From the IMG/VR virus record IMGVR_UViG_3300033995_000320, positions 1 to 22,663 of that record: a stretch of DNA of 22,663 nt; one strand, 5' to 3'. The DNA is from a virus. A program made the translations under genes and the position numbers. Shown here one piece after another: positions 1,414 through 21,735 of this stretch. The first letter of the stretch is position 1; every line of letters begins with the position of its first letter. The notes below the pieces were generated by a model. The model was given only the letters and a program-made list of their open reading frames with translations, made no database searches and was not told the origin of the DNA.

Positions 1414-1639
1414 ATTGTTTATAAACAATTTAGCCAAATTTGAGTAAAATGAAAGCTAAGAAGAAGTAATTATTGTACTATCTACCATATTAGGAGTATA
1501 GTATTTCGATGCTCGATACGTTTTAAAATTTACCGAGCCTTGCGGATAAATGATTGCAATCATTTATAAATAAATTACACAAAGTTTTGTGTAAAATAAA
1601 AAAAATCCCTTACGAATTAAAAACTTGTAGGGGATTTTT
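1414..1639 (+). ncRNA. Candidate structured RNA: consecutive stem-loops
   Basis: Inverted repeats follow each other with short gaps. There is a perfect 16-base palindrome at 1414-1429 (half site ATTGTTTA). A 7-bp stem pairs 1475-1481 with 1498-1504. A GCTCG/CGAGC stem pairs 1511-1515 with 1534-1538. A perfect 22-base palindrome lies at 1546-1567 (half site ATAAATGATTG). A 9-bp stem with two central unpaired bases lies at 1575-1594 (arms TTACACAAA and TTTGTGTAA). The last element is the 13-bp terminator stem. Such a chain could be a discrete noncoding RNA or a processed 3' region of the head-gene transcript. The palindromes could instead be protein-binding operators. The repeats are seen directly; RNA function is inference. 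Confidence 0.4.
1601..1639 (+). terminator. Intrinsic terminator before the capsid gene
   Basis: The left arm AAAAATCCCTTAC (1601-1613) pairs with the right arm GTAGGGGATTTTT (1627-1639), giving 13 bp with one G-T wobble and a 13-base loop. The T run is part of the right arm and the left arm is preceded by further A residues, so the hairpin could act in either direction. It would end the upstream head operon before the capsid gene's own promoter-like box. Confidence 0.75.
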
Positions 1640-1652
1640 CGTAACTTTGTAA
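1638..1652 (+). promoter_or_regulatory. Repeated TTCGTAACTTTGTAA element (copy 1), promoter-like
   Basis: This 15-mer contains TAACTTTG, matching the Bacteroidetes -7 consensus TAnnTTTG. A clear TTG at the usual 17-23 base spacing is not seen; the nearest TTG leaves only 14 bases. It abuts the terminator and lies 78 bases before the capsid ATG. An identical 15-mer precedes the tape measure gene and a 13/15 copy precedes the S74 fibre gene, suggesting a late promoter, possibly helped by a phage factor (inference). Confidence 0.5.
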
Positions 1653-1730
1653 AACTTTGGCGGTAGTTGGAGGGAATCGGGCGGTATGCTCACAATTAAA
1701 ACGAGTATTATCAATTAAAATTTAAACAAA

Positions 1731-2762
1731 ATGCCGAACAAAACAACCGCAAATTTGGTTAAAGCTCAAGCAAGATTGCTTGGAGCGTTCCAATCTTCTG
1801 AATTAAGATTCAGATACCCAGCTACTTATTTAGCACTTAAAGGTAATTCAAACATTATGTTCCCTAACTACGATGAACTTCGTACAAGAGAGGACAGAAC
1901 AGTTGAAACCAACTTCATCGCAAGAGCGAAACGTTCTCTTGGAACAGGTGGAAGAACTCATAACCATACTGGTGTGAAACAAGATTCAGCAATACTAACT
2001 CCATCTTGGACACAGTATTCTGACAAATTCAATATGTCATTGAAACAAGCTGACAACTCTTTGTATAATGCAGACGAACAATTGTTCAACGAAATTTCAA
2101 ATGCAGTATCTAACTTTATGGAAGGATATGAAACAGCTGCTACTTCTTACATCTTTACAAATAGAAGTGCTGTTGTTGCTACTGTTTCAGAAGCTACATT
2201 TATAACTGCTGGTACAGTAAATGCTTATGAAATCGCTTCTGCTAACGAAAGTAGAGCTATGCAGATTACTAAAATCGCAATGCAAACTAATAAATATCCT
2301 GAAGGATTTACAGTTTTCTGTGATTCAGTTGCTTATGCTAAATTTGAGTATCAAGCTGCTCAAGGTATTTCTAATTCTGCTAACTTGTCATTCCAATTTA
2401 ATGGAGTAACATTTGTTCACTCAGTAGAACTTAATGCTCTTGCAGTTGCAGTAAAAGCTGGTCATACAAAAGGATATTGGATTGTAGTTCCTGATGGAAC
2501 TGTGTCTACATTGCCTTGGATTCCTAAACAAAACAGAGTTGGAGTTGATACAGTAGTAGGTAACTACTCTAATATTATCAACCCTATTGATGGAGAATCT
2601 TACGCATTGCATACTTATGTAACTGCTGCTGATGATACTGCAAACAATGGTTATGCTCAAGATGTAGTTACTCAATACGAAATATCTCAAGATATGTCAT
2701 TTGCTAAAGCTCCTCTTACAGTATCAACTGAAACTCCTATCATTGCGTTTGCAATTATCTAA
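1731..2762 (+). CDS. Probable major capsid protein (HK97-fold type)
   Basis: This 343-residue protein follows the scaffold-like gene and has its own promoter-like box and an A-rich start context (AAACAAAATG). The first 30 residues are a basic helical arm (NLVKAQARLLGAFQSSELR), followed by a flexible basic segment (ARAKRSLGTGGRTHNHTG, about 64-81) like the extended loop of HK97-type shells. The middle is a helical core (ADEQLFNEISNAVSNFMEGY). The rest is mixed alpha/beta with Ala, Asn, Thr and Tyr typical of shell proteins and few charged residues. Length, order (scaffold, this gene, connectors, tail) and its position as first gene of a new transcription unit support the call. No motif proves it. 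A different abundant structural protein is the alternative. Confidence 0.75.
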   Translation: MPNKTTANLVKAQARLLGAFQSSELRFRYPATYLALKGNSNIMFPNYDELRTREDRTVETNFIARAKRSLGTGGRTHNHTGVKQDSAILTPSWTQYSDKFNMSLKQADNSLYNADEQLFNEISNAVSNFMEGYETAATSYIFTNRSAVVATVSEATFITAGTVNAYEIASANESRAMQITKIAMQTNKYPEGFTVFCDSVAYAKFEYQAAQGISNSANLSFQFNGVTFVHSVELNALAVAVKAGHTKGYWIVVPDGTVSTLPWIPKQNRVGVDTVVGNYSNIINPIDGESYALHTYVTAADDTANNGYAQDVVTQYEISQDMSFAKAPLTVSTETPIIAFAII

Positions 2763-5441: not shown

Positions 5442-5462
5442 TAATTAGATTGTATTAATTAG

Positions 5463-5492
5463 ACCCGATGCGTAACTGTATCGGGTTTTTTT
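5463..5492 (+). terminator. Intrinsic terminator after tail tube gene
   Basis: ACCCGAT (5463-5469) pairs with ATCGGGT (5480-5486). The stem can extend inward by G-T and C-G pairs to leave a TAAC loop, and it is followed by a run of seven T residues. It lies 21 bases past the tail tube stop and would close the capsid-to-tube transcription unit. Confidence 0.85.
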
Positions 5493-5496
5493 ATTT

Positions 5497-5543
5497 GTGA
5501 AGATTCATCTTCACATTTATCTTTAAGAGATAAATCTCTTAAA
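5497..5543 (+). promoter_or_regulatory. Two perfect AT-rich hairpins in tandem
   Basis: GTGAAGA and TCTTCAC (5497-5514) form a perfect 7-bp stem with a 4-base loop. TTTAAGAGA and TCTCTTAAA (5522-5543) form a perfect 9-bp stem with a 4-base loop. They sit between the terminator and the TACCTTTG box of the next gene. They could be operators for a regulator or RNA structures; neither has a clear T tail. Confidence 0.5.
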
Positions 5544-5560
5544 CTCAATTAAATTTTATT

Positions 5561-5568
5561 TACCTTTG
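5561..5568 (+). promoter_or_regulatory. TACCTTTG promoter-like box
   Basis: The box matches the Bacteroidetes -7 consensus TAnnTTTG and is followed by TA, like the other boxes in this window. Only four bases separate it from the ATG at 5573, so transcription would start at or next to the start codon. No -33 TTG is found at normal spacing. Confidence 0.45.
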
Positions 5569-5572
5569 TACT

Positions 5573-6016
5573 ATGGCAACGACAGTTAGAGATTATATAG
5601 ATAAAGCAAAAAGAGTTCAGTCGCAAATAGGAAATGAGATTGATGATATTGTCGTTTCTTTTGAAGATAAGATTTTAGATTTAAACCGAGAAGAACAAAT
5701 ATTTAAAAAAGGTATAGATATAAACGGTGCATTATTAGGAAAATACAAAGACGACTACAAAGGAAATACAAGAGGTTATCCAAAAGAAGGAGGAACTCCA
5801 TTTAACTTTTTTGATACTGGTCAATTATTTAGTAAATTCAATTTATTATCTAAGGGAAACCAAAATAAAATGACAATAGAAAATACAGATGGTAAAGCGA
5901 AATTACTTGCTGATAAATATGGAGAGTTTGTAGGATTAACCGAAGAAAATAAACGCAAACTTAACTACGAAATAATATATCCCGAATTAATGAAATTTAT
6001 AAAAACATATTTATGA
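5573..6016 (+). CDS. Tail completion / virion morphogenesis protein, Mu gpG-like
   Basis: This 147-residue protein has an N-terminal helical region (IDKAKRVQSQIGNEIDDIVVSF) and a middle segment with FFDTGQLFSKFNLL. The second half has ENTDGKAKLLADKYGEFVGL followed by TEENKRKL and a terminal helix. The order 'D/SGxL..S', strand, 'KYG..(F)GLTEEN' and final helix is the pattern of the phage virion morphogenesis (Mu gpG) and HK97 gp10-like families, which help complete the tail or join it to the head. It lies downstream of the tail tube rather than upstream, an unusual order. It overlaps the next gene as ATGA and has its own promoter-like box almost touching the start codon. Confidence 0.65.
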   Translation: MATTVRDYIDKAKRVQSQIGNEIDDIVVSFEDKILDLNREEQIFKKGIDINGALLGKYKDDYKGNTRGYPKEGGTPFNFFDTGQLFSKFNLLSKGNQNKMTIENTDGKAKLLADKYGEFVGLTEENKRKLNYEIIYPELMKFIKTYL

Positions 6017-6642: not shown

Positions 6643-6657
6643 TTCGTAACTTTGTAA
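6643..6657 (+). promoter_or_regulatory. Repeated TTCGTAACTTTGTAA element (copy 2), promoter-like
   Basis: The 15 bases are identical to the copy at 1638-1652 and include the TAACTTTG box. It begins 4 bases after the stop of the preceding gene and lies 52 bases before the tape measure ATG. No TTG is seen at the usual upstream spacing. Confidence 0.5.
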
Positions 6658-6660
6658 TTC

Positions 6661-6695
6661 GGGGATTGCTACGTAATGTGGTTAATCCCCTTTTT
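6661..6695 (+). terminator. Terminator-like hairpin between promoter box and tape measure gene
   Basis: GGGGATT (6661-6667) pairs perfectly with AATCCCC (6684-6690) around a 16-base loop and is followed by TTTTT. It can be the terminator of the preceding two-gene unit. It starts only 6 bases after the TAACTTTG box, so a transcript from that box would begin with this hairpin at its 5' end. It might then act as an attenuator or as a stabilising 5' stem-loop. Confidence 0.6.
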
Positions 6696-6709
6696 AAATT
6701 TAATACACT

Positions 6710-9700
6710 ATGGCAAACGAGATAGATTTAGTAGTTGGTTCAGCAGTAAAGACTCAGTTAGATACTCTAATGAAAGAGTTGGTAAAAATTGACGAACAAA
6801 TACAAAAAATAGGAGATACAGCTGCTAGTATGAACACTAAATTAGGTGTTACAAATACTGCTGATTTAACTAAACTTACTGCTGAAAATGAAAAATTAAA
6901 TAAAAAGATACAAGAGTTAACAGGTTCATCAACTGTACTTGAAACAAAATTAGCTAATTTAGCAGCGGCACAAGCAAGGGCTACTAAAGCAGCGACAGAC
7001 GCTTCAATTGCTGAAGAAAAATTACTTGCAGCTACAAATAAAAATACTGTTGCAACTGAAAAGAAAACTAAAGCAACATTAGCAGATACTATTGCTCAAA
7101 GAGAAGCTACTAATGCTACAACTTTAGAAATAAAAGCTGGACAAGGATTAGCAAAAACCTATGCTGAATTAGATGCTCAACATAAAATAGCAGTTAAAAA
7201 TGCACAAGATTTAGCAGTACAAACTGGTAGAAGTGGAAAGGCTTATGAAGATGCAAAGTTAAAAGCCAATGAATATGGTAAGCAATTAAGAGTTATAGAT
7301 ACTGACATTGGAAAACACACTCGTAATGTAGGTAACTATTCATCATCTTGGAATGGATTAGGTAACTCGATTAACCAACTTACTCGTGAAGCTCCAGCAT
7401 TTGCTAATAGCGTTCAAACAGGTTTTATGGCATTATCTAATAACATCCCAATTTTAACGGATGAGTTAGGTGTGCTTATACAAAAGAATAAAGATTTACA
7501 AGCAGAAGGGAAGCCAACACAGTCAATTCTTAAAACAGTTGCAGGAGCATTTTTCTCTTGGCAAACTGCTATATCTTTAGGTGTAACTATACTTACAGTA
7601 TATGGAGCTAAATTATGGGATATGGTAAGCGGTCTTGATGCTTTAAAAAGAAAGCAAGAAGAATACGCACTTTCTCAAAAATTAATGGATAATCAAATAG
7701 AACAGACTACTAAAAATATACTTGACCAAGCTAAATTAAAAAAAGATGCTTCTATATTAGCTGGAGAATCTTCAGACAAACAAAGAAAAATTGATTTACA
7801 AGCTGAAAAAGATATTCAAGATAATCTTGTTTTTAGGAGGGATTCTGATAAAAAGAAATATGAGAATGCAAAACATTATGCGGACTTAGAAGCGAAACTA
7901 CCAAGTATTTATGCTCAAGGACAAGAAGCTATTAAGCAACGTATTAAAATCAATAATGAATTAAAAAAATATAAAAATTATGAAACAACTCCTGAAGGAT
8001 TAGCAGACTTAAAAAACGCTGCTACTTTATCAGAAGGTATAGTAAAAGAACAAGGGAGAAAAATAACTTTGTTAAAGAGCGCTCAAAAAGTAGAGGAATA
8101 TAATGAAGCAAAAAAATCTCAAGAAAAAATAGACAAGATAAAGCCTGAAAGAGAAAGAAAAGTATTGACTTTTGATGAGGTTAAGTCTGAACACGATTTA
8201 GCAGAAGCAGTATTAGCAACTGATAAAATCAGAGAAAAATCGGCAGATATGTCAGAATGGACTACTGAACAAAAAATAGCTAATTTAGATTTATTAAGTT
8301 TAACAGAAATAAAAACTGCTTCTGAAATAGCTAATAAAGAAATAGATATTGCTAATAAAAAAATGGCTGATAACAAAACAGCAAATGATTTAGCATTAAA
8401 AAATAACAAGGAATTTGCAACGCAACACGCTAAAAATATTCTTGATATTGAGAAAACAAATAAGAATGAAATACTTACCGCAAATGAAGTTTTAAATGGC
8501 AAAATACTTGAATCAGCTTTAAATACTGACAAAGCAATAAAAGCATTAAGCGACGAAGATTTAAAATCAACTCAACAATTAGCTATCGCTAAATTAAATA
8601 CAGAGATTATTGCTGAAAAATTAATTATAGATAATAAAGTTAAAGGTAAAAATTTTACAAAATTACAACAAGAAGAAGCGTTTAAAGAATATATAAAATT
8701 ATCATTAGCTAAAATAGATTTAGAGGAGAAAGTGCAATTAGCTTCTGAACCAAATCCTATTAAGCAAGAGATAATAAAACAAAATTTTGCTGATTTAAGA
8801 AAAGGCATTGAAAACATATTATCTCCAATTGAGGGGGTTAAAAAAGCATTTGCTGATTTATCTACATCAGGAGAAGTGTATAATAAAAGTCTTTCAGCAT
8901 CTTTAGATAAGTTAGGAATGTCAAGTCTTAAAACATTTTTAGATTTTGATGAATTTGGACAATCTTCTTTTCAGAAAATGTGGGAAAATGCAGATACAAC
9001 TCAAAAGAAAACAACTGTTATGTTCCAAGCAATTGGAGATGTGGCTCAACAATATTTTGGAATGATTTCAGAAGTATCTGAAGCTAATTTTCAAGAAGAT
9101 TTAAGAAGATTAGAAGCTCAAAAAGAAATATCATTAAGTTTTGCTGGAGATAGTGCTGTTGCTAAAGAAAGAATTGAAGAGCAATTTGCTAAGAAGAAAA
9201 AAGAACTTGAAATAAAACAGTTTAAGGACAAACAGAAAATGGCTGTTGCAAATATAGCAATAGATACTGCTCAAGCTATTATGCAAATATGGGCGCATAG
9301 TCCTGATTTTACTGGTATATCTCAAAGCGCAATGTCGATAATTATTGGAGCATTAGGAGCTGTGCAAATGGGAATGGTACTTACTCAAAAACCACCTGCT
9401 TACGCTGAAGGTACAGATAATCACTCGGGAGGGTTGATGCTTGTAAATGATGGTAAAGGAAGTAACTTCCAAGAGAAAGTTGTATTACCAAGTGGTAAAG
9501 TTATTAGACCACAAGGCAGAAACGTGCTTATGGATGCTCCTAAGGGAACTAAGGTATTGAATCACGAACAACAATTATTTGAAATGTTACAAAGTAATAA
9601 TATATCAATGTCATCTCAACAATCAAGTGGATTAACTTATGACGAGATGAATGAAATATTCCAAAATAATTTTGCAAATATTAAAACACAAAACACTATC

Positions 9701-20757: not shown

Positions 20758-20765
20758 TATATTTG
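20758..20765 (+). promoter_or_regulatory. TATATTTG promoter-like box before exonuclease gene
   Basis: The box fits TAnnTTTG and is followed by TA. A TTG at 20732-20734 leaves a 23-base spacer, at the long end of the range known for flavobacterial promoters. Only four bases separate the box from the ATG at 20770, the same spacing as at 5573. Confidence 0.5.
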
Positions 20766-20769
20766 TAAT

Positions 20770-21672
20770 ATGAAAAAAAATGCTGAAAGGCGGTATCGAT
20801 TTAACCATTATATCGCAAACAAAGTTGGAGTAACTATTAATAAACAAGGTCGTTATCGACTAACTCCCGAACAAGAAAATAAGTACTTTGACATCGTTCA
20901 AAATCAAGAGCATATCAAAAGGCTTTTCTTTGACATCGAAACATCTCCTAATCTTGTGTACGCTTGGAGGATTGGTTACAATCTAACTATACATCCCGAT
21001 AGTATTGTAGATGAGCGTAAAATTATATGTATATCTTACAAGTGGGAACACGAGGATAAAATCCATAGATTAACGTGGGATAAAGATATGTGTGATAAGC
21101 AAATGCTTATTGATTTTATATCGGTGGCTAATAAGGCTGACGAAATGATTGCACACAATGGGGATAGGTTTGACATTAAATGGATAAGAACACGTTGCAT
21201 ATTCCATAGGGTTTCAATGTTTCCTCAGTACAAGACATTAGATACTCTTAAAAAGGCTAAAAGTGGCTTCAATTTCAATTCCAACAAACTGGATTACATT
21301 GCACAATTTTTAGGAGTTGGAGCAAAAATTAAGCATAGTGGATTTGATATGTGGAAGGAAGTTATGAAAGGCAATCCTGATGCACTTGAAGAAATGGGTA
21401 ACTATTGCGATGGAGATATAGTTGTCTTGGAAGATGTATTCTTGACGATGCAGAACTACATTAAACCAAACACTCACGCTGGAGTTATAAATGGTAATCT
21501 TAAATATAGTTGTCCATCTTGCTCAAGTGAAAATGTAATCTTACTTAAAAATATAGTTACCGCTATGGGAACTATCAAGAGATTAATGGAATGTCAAGAT
21601 TGCGGTCAAGTCTACGAGATAAGCAATTCAGCATACAAACTTCATTTAGAAATGAAAGATAAGTTTAAGTAA
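20770..21672 (+). CDS. DnaQ/PolB-like 3'-5' exonuclease with C-terminal zinc ribbon
   Basis: This 300-residue protein carries the three exonuclease motifs of the DEDD superfamily. Exo I is LFFDIETSPN with D55 and E57. Exo II is HNGDRFDIKW with D135. Exo III is YCDGD with Y212 and D216, the DEDDy form of the PolB-type proofreading domain. An N-terminal 45 residues are helical and basic and may bind nucleic acid. After the nuclease comes a zinc ribbon with CPSC (C248, C251) and CQDC (C275, C278). It is transcribed from its own box after the lysis genes and ends at a palindromic terminator. It could trim DNA ends in replication, recombination or packaging, or degrade host DNA. The substrate is not evident. 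Confidence 0.88.
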   Translation: MKKNAERRYRFNHYIANKVGVTINKQGRYRLTPEQENKYFDIVQNQEHIKRLFFDIETSPNLVYAWRIGYNLTIHPDSIVDERKIICISYKWEHEDKIHRLTWDKDMCDKQMLIDFISVANKADEMIAHNGDRFDIKWIRTRCIFHRVSMFPQYKTLDTLKKAKSGFNFNSNKLDYIAQFLGVGAKIKHSGFDMWKEVMKGNPDALEEMGNYCDGDIVVLEDVFLTMQNYIKPNTHAGVINGNLKYSCPSCSSENVILLKNIVTAMGTIKRLMECQDCGQVYEISNSAYKLHLEMKDKFK

Positions 21673-21700: not shown

Positions 21701-21735
21701 AACCCCTAATAAATATATTTATTAGGGGTTTTTCT
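21701..21735. terminator. Bidirectional terminator, perfect 30-base palindrome
   Basis: Bases 21701-21730 form a perfect palindrome whose half is AACCCCTAATAAATA, followed on the plus strand by TTTCT. It lies between the exonuclease stop and the convergent metallophosphoesterase stop at 21736-21738. The T run is better on the plus strand; on the minus strand the hairpin is followed by a shorter, poorer T run. Confidence 0.88.

Follow-up and report, generated by a model that had tools for sequence, protein, structure and literature searches.

Conserved matched-loop hairpins precede a phage major capsid gene and may form an RNA operator

The window analyzed here is the whole stretch of 22,663 nucleotides that makes up the virus record IMGVR_UViG_3300033995_000320 (IMG/VR). 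Ahead of its major capsid gene lie a chain of inverted repeats, the terminator of the upstream transcription unit, a promoter, and a leader with two small hairpins, as follows.

1414-1429, strand-neutral: perfect palindrome of 16 bp, ATTGTTTATAAACAAT, specific to the window
1446-1469, plus strand: gene relic, the 3'-terminal 24 bases of a small gene for a basic protein (MPLKKGYSKKS...KMKAKKK)
around 1473-1504: imperfect stem, an inverted repeat of the chain
1511-1538: imperfect inverted repeat, GCTCG...CGAGC
1546-1567, strand-neutral: perfect palindrome of 22 bp, ATAAATGATTGCAATCATTTAT, specific to the window
1575-1594, strand-neutral: AT-rich palindrome before the terminator, TTACACAAAGTTTTGTGTAA, with 9-bp arms and a 2-nt loop
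about 1599-1640, plus strand: intrinsic terminator of the upstream unit, with a stem of about 15 bp that includes G-U pairs and a 9-nt loop
1642-1649, plus strand: promoter -7 box TAACTTTG (TAnnTTTG; Bacteroidota sigma-A type), predicted start 1654
1655-1672, plus strand: hairpin H1, CTTTGGC-GGTA-GTTGGAG, 7 bp with RNA loop GGUA, where the capsid mRNA is predicted to begin
1679-1691, plus strand: hairpin H2, GGGC-GGTAT-GCTC, 4 bp with RNA loop GGUAU
1703-1712, plus strand: P3', GAGTATTATC, a possible alternative partner that can pair with GGTATGCTC (1683-1691) and thereby excludes H2
1731-2762, plus strand: major capsid protein gene (PHROG 7231, head and packaging)

The capsid gene is identified by homology, both to PHROG 7231 and to a protein annotated as major capsid protein in the Pseudanabaena (cyanobacterial) phage Pan5; AlphaFold, run with 16 sequences, gave a pLDDT of 32. 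A first-pass annotation had singled out the chain at 1414-1639 as a run of six inverted repeats, a terminator stem among them, with no reading frame, and had suggested a structured RNA or a multi-operator region for capsid expression. The repeats are present and exceed what shuffling produces: the folding of 1400-1660 is far stronger than that of shuffled sequences on both strands (z of -4.7 and -5.3, with neither strand equalled in any of 200 shuffles), and none of 500 shuffles produced two perfect repeats whose arms were 9 bases or longer. The last part is indeed a terminator, with a 15-bp stem and then a U run. No open reading frame fills the chain, although positions 1446-1469 are the exact 3' end of a small gene, and no tRNA or tmRNA remnant was found.

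For comparison, viral contigs supplied 37 loci that carry a relative of the capsid gene. Within 1387-1660, close relatives have counterparts only for 1445-1470 and about 1568-1660; nothing convincing matched 1387-1444 or 1471-1567 in any relative fetched, an exact scan with the repeat at 1508-1538 returned no match, and DNA similarity in known phages was limited to two weak 39-base matches (one Enterococcus phage). The first counterpart is the relic: the small basic-protein gene (47 amino acids) is intact in L004-L007, L011, and L014, and the window keeps its last 24 bases, with 100% identity over 24-26 nt to L004, L005, and L014. The second is the terminator together with the promoter behind it. 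Other relatives have other DNA at this site, namely, an open reading frame in place of the chain in L001, L008-L010, and L015, which, judging from its repeats, looks like a homing endonuclease, and, in L012 and L013, a cluster of tRNA-like genes (read from sequence) upstream of the capsid gene, where other phages have the terminator. Because counterparts are missing and other genes occupy the chain site, the chain is not conserved as a unit, and the expectation that it would be an RNA with compensatory changes fails in the relatives fetched. Moreover, it lies upstream of the capsid promoter and so cannot be in a capsid mRNA made from that promoter. On the comparison of sequences, 1414-1639 is the end of the previous unit, made up of a terminator, the remnant of a gene, and palindromes that change rapidly.

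In 9 of 11 close relatives, the terminator ahead of the capsid gene is directly preceded by a perfect, AT-rich palindrome (18-22 bases), whose sequence differs in nearly every phage while palindromy is kept; that of the window (1575-1594) has a near-identical copy in L001 and other sequences in the other relatives. Since these palindromes precede A-rich sequence, a U-rich tail would follow them on the minus strand only, and they are possibly weak terminators against antisense transcription. Palindromes also occur farther along the window. Two lie at 5496-5543, between a terminator and a promoter, of which TGTGAAGATTCATCTTCACA nearly recurs elsewhere in L006, before the capsid terminator; and a perfect palindrome of 30 bases, AACCCCTAATAAATATATTTATTAGGGGTT, at 21701-21730 between convergent genes is probably a two-way terminator.

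In the predicted fold, the terminator at 1599-1640 has an A run before its G+C-containing stem and UUUUU after it; a simple terminator scan missed it, probably because its 9-nt loop is above the scan's loop limit of 8. It is conserved in close relatives, and where it has been replaced (L001 and L012), H1 and H2 persist. A TAnnTTTG box stands 17-20 nt upstream of the H1 loop in nearly all Flavobacterium-type leaders. The Flavobacterium promoter box lies at -12 to -5 from the transcription start (PMC9723704), so that the box at 1642-1649 predicts a start at 1654, with H1 from +2. The capsid mRNA would then have a 5' untranslated region (UTR) of 77 nt; the median in F. psychrophilum is 24 nt (PMC9723704). 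Predicted leaders elsewhere are much shorter than these 77 nt: the promoter boxes at 5561-5573 and 20758-20770 lie so near an ATG that their mRNAs would have almost no leader. The capsid unit is ended by a terminator at about 5460-5492, with new promoters at 5561 and 6647. Between the latter box and the tape-measure start codon stands a terminator-like hairpin, GGGGATT...AATCCCC-TTTTT, and this combination of promoter and hairpin (6647-6710) looks like an attenuator.

The first-pass annotation had noted neither the promoter (1642-1649) nor the conserved hairpins (1655-1691), and its stretch ends 16 bases before the conserved structure begins. A structured RNA dedicated to capsid expression does exist, and it covaries among related phages, but it lies just downstream of the chain and not within it. 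The H2 loop follows the H1 loop by 21 nt, and H2 lies 39 nt before the capsid ATG. A covariance model, seeded in a structure-guided manner from ten relatives, matched the window at 1655-1693 (25.3 bits). It gave exactly one match in each of 35 of the 38 sources (365 kb), and every match immediately preceded the capsid gene, even at loci with a replaced upstream terminator. Among whole records in which the model reached an E value of <0.01, nothing but the capsid leader matched convincingly, and most records lack a second copy of the leader hairpins at another promoter. Most of the contigs are metagenomic.

In the hairpin alignment (26 distinct rows), 88.8% of cells are paired, compared with 78.7% after shuffling (0 of 500) and 33-47% when partners are slid by 1-3 columns, and the covariation score is 0.404, compared with 0.258 for shuffles (none of 500 reach it) and at most 0.205 when slid, with both counts leaning toward structure because the alignment was fitted to it. 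The arms of H1 are also readable without the model, as TTTGGC/GTTGGA, TTTGGC/GTCAGA, TTTGGC/GCTAAA, and TATTGGC/GTTGATA. Relatives with capsids 62-97% identical keep both hairpins with differing stems and GGU(A) loops, such that the pairs of H1 and H2 are retained through sequence change; L016 keeps H1 alone, and H2 has only 3-4 bp in many phages. G-U pairs make up about 30% of the paired cells tallied over the alignment, which fits an RNA of the sense strand and not DNA. The hairpins are sense-strand hairpins, selection acts on them, and their link to the capsid gene is exclusive.

A DNA-operator reading was considered and discarded, as the stems vary while the loops are conserved, and as many pairs are G-U, on one strand only. 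Rfam 15 scans gave no match for this part of the window and none for six relatives at E values up to 1, RNAalifold applied to a plain MAFFT alignment gave no structure because the loops vary from 4 to 6 nt, and loose scans of viral contigs with the pattern GGCGGTA returned mostly chance matches. The capsids of L001 and the window are 97% identical and their leaders are of different types, as if the leader had been exchanged as a unit.

Rows of hairpins are not confined to close relatives: they precede the capsid genes of Flavobacterium-type phages, Chitinophagaceae phages, and Pan5, and where capsid identity falls to 35-63% (Bacteroidota-type) or about 27% (Pan5), the stems differ and the loops within a leader still match, as follows.

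Pan5 leader: four GGU triloops
L331 leader (a Pan5 relative): three GGU triloops
L334 leader: three GGUU/GGUA loops
L335 leader: three AGGU(G/A)C loops
L336 leader: three AAGA loops
L322 and L341 leaders: two CGC triloops

These leaders have two to four hairpins with a loop-to-loop step of 21-27 nt, and 29-49 nt separate the end of the last hairpin from the start codon in all those tabulated except L025 (116 nt). The loops broadly track capsid clades in the tree, with the exception of the sisters L334 and L335, whose loops differ. At least two GGT-loop hairpins occur in 13 of 39 distinct leaders, where shuffles predict 0.5, and in 1 of 304 upstream regions that served as controls at these loci. 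When matching loops were totalled across all leaders in a motif-free test, the sum (89, with 83 expected) was not significant, although single leaders such as those of Pan5, L334, and L335 were. No array occurs in Polaribacter phage P12002L or in a Rhodobacteraceae phage, where the gap upstream of the capsid gene is only 34-50 nt. A search of about 790 Bacteroidota genomes for PHROG 7231 yielded two further distant capsids.

H2 itself may have a competitor. The segment at 1683-1691, which is the loop and 3' arm of H2, can pair with P3' in a duplex of -8.6 kcal/mol (0 of 300 shuffles), and the free fold of the window leader favors this pairing, P3, over H2. P3-like pairing was found in about half of the Flavobacterium-type relatives tested, with matching changes in L001 and L012, where GGUAAAGUU pairs with AACUUUAUU, and only 50 of 5,000 permutations of partners reach the cognate sum. 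The pairing is absent from L022, L029, L030, L032, and L034 and is therefore not general.

The loops are conserved while the stems change, the copies are evenly spaced and attached to a single gene, and they recur in phages whose hosts are far apart, all of which suggests that a protein encoded by the phage recognizes the loops. The reading we tentatively prefer is that the capsid leader (about 1654-1730) acts as an RNA operator: a phage protein would bind its loops and tune capsid synthesis, in the manner of the gp43 operator of T4. Transcription from TAACTTTG would start directly into H1, and H1 and H2 would offer their GGU(A) loops at fixed spacing to a phage-encoded RNA-binding protein that grips both together. 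Once bound, this protein could set capsid translation from just outside the ribosome footprint, by analogy with the T4 hairpin, and in the phages with P3 (about half of the Flavobacterium-type relatives), binding could switch the exposure of the AU-rich start region by way of the competition between H2 and P3. We infer the transcript start, the protein binding, the identity of the protein, and the direction of control. The simplest candidate for the partner, and a guess, is the capsid protein, as the only component known to be common to all these loci; a scaffold or other conserved protein would do. A more far-reaching version, which we regard as doubtful, is that of an ancient autogenous operator, in which the family's major capsid protein would bind the matched loops on its own mRNA and adjust its own synthesis to assembly, loop sequence and capsid coevolving across phages of Bacteroidota and cyanobacteria.

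A 5'-terminal hairpin may add a stabilizing role to such an operator, and stabilization could also be the whole function, with H1 at the 5' terminus, and H2 behind it, shielding the capsid mRNA from 5'-dependent decay with no dedicated protein. The predicted start at 1654, the nearly fixed distance from promoter to H1, and the need for an abundant, long-lived capsid mRNA all suit this explanation, which we nonetheless consider unlikely, given that a stabilizer needs stems but neither conserved loops nor two to four evenly spaced copies with matched loops, and that no promoter box was recognized near the first hairpin of Pan5, L331, or L334.

Two further explanations are less probable again, to a similar degree. 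One is that, as in put RNA, the hairpins contact RNA polymerase as they emerge (or a Nus-like complex together with a phage factor) and let it read through late-operon terminators. Two stem-loops directly after a promoter are what HK022 putL has (PMC9378689), and terminator-like hairpins do lie downstream, at about 5460-5492 and 6660-6695. These are, however, followed or preceded by promoters of their own (5561 and 6647), such that the late region looks divided into units; put recognizes the host polymerase, but the rows span hosts from Flavobacterium to a cyanobacterium; the loop sequence changes between capsid clades; and a second copy at another promoter is missing from most records. Antitermination of the put type is thus less likely than the loop-read operator. 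The other is that of a translation enhancer or standby site, in which the hairpins would leave the AU-rich sequence upstream of the ATG accessible, or the GGU loops would contact the ribosome, so that capsid translation rises with no phage regulator. An AU-rich 29-49 nt does separate the last hairpin from the start codon, and initiation in F. johnsoniae relies on weakly structured mRNA instead of Shine-Dalgarno pairing (PMC6847099). But flavobacterial ribosomes do without that pairing, the CGC and AAGA loops of some clades do not fit a single rRNA partner, and P3 would hide part of the AU-rich stretch of the window. Finally, that the chain at 1414-1639 is itself the structured RNA or multi-operator region is highly improbable, strong folding and recurrent pre-terminator palindromy notwithstanding, because it is conserved in neither sequence nor composition, its palindromes differ in each relative, and it stands upstream of the capsid promoter.

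This compact leader, shared by phages that infect widely different hosts, offers a testable model for how the supply of the most abundant phage protein is set, and a row of hairpins with matched loops is possibly a small, portable RNA-protein control part. To our knowledge, RNA-level control of the major capsid gene has scarcely been described in tailed double-stranded DNA phages, and we found no description of it in the open-access literature searched.

Several known systems resemble parts of this arrangement. Flavo-1 and other structured 5' UTRs of Flavobacteriaceae (PMC9723704) share a structured 5' UTR and the host family, but Rfam scans matched none of them in this region of the window or in the six relatives. 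HK022 put, like the capsid leader, places two stem-loops in nascent phage RNA just after the promoter (PMC9378689), the capsid leaders having two in the window and up to four in relatives. Unlike the hairpin part here (about 37 nt, with two to four hairpins, in a structural operon), put is about 70 nt long and belongs to early transcripts, and the capsid unit has its own terminator followed by new promoters. In operators of the MS2 type, the coat protein acts through an RNA hairpin and its loop; that operator differs in being a single hairpin over the replicase start of a single-stranded RNA phage, and coat binding in the present case is conjectural. The closest in layout is the autogenous translational operator of gp43, the DNA polymerase of T4 and RB69, an RNA hairpin before the start codon of a phage gene, located about 40 bases upstream of it in T4, in which recognition depends on loop bases that are mostly the same in relatives (PMC3014915). 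It comprises one hairpin, serves a polymerase gene, and extends over the ribosome binding site, whereas the capsid leader presents two to four hairpins with matched loops of another sequence and a putative bound protein before a capsid gene; what the two have in common is an upstream hairpin with a conserved loop.
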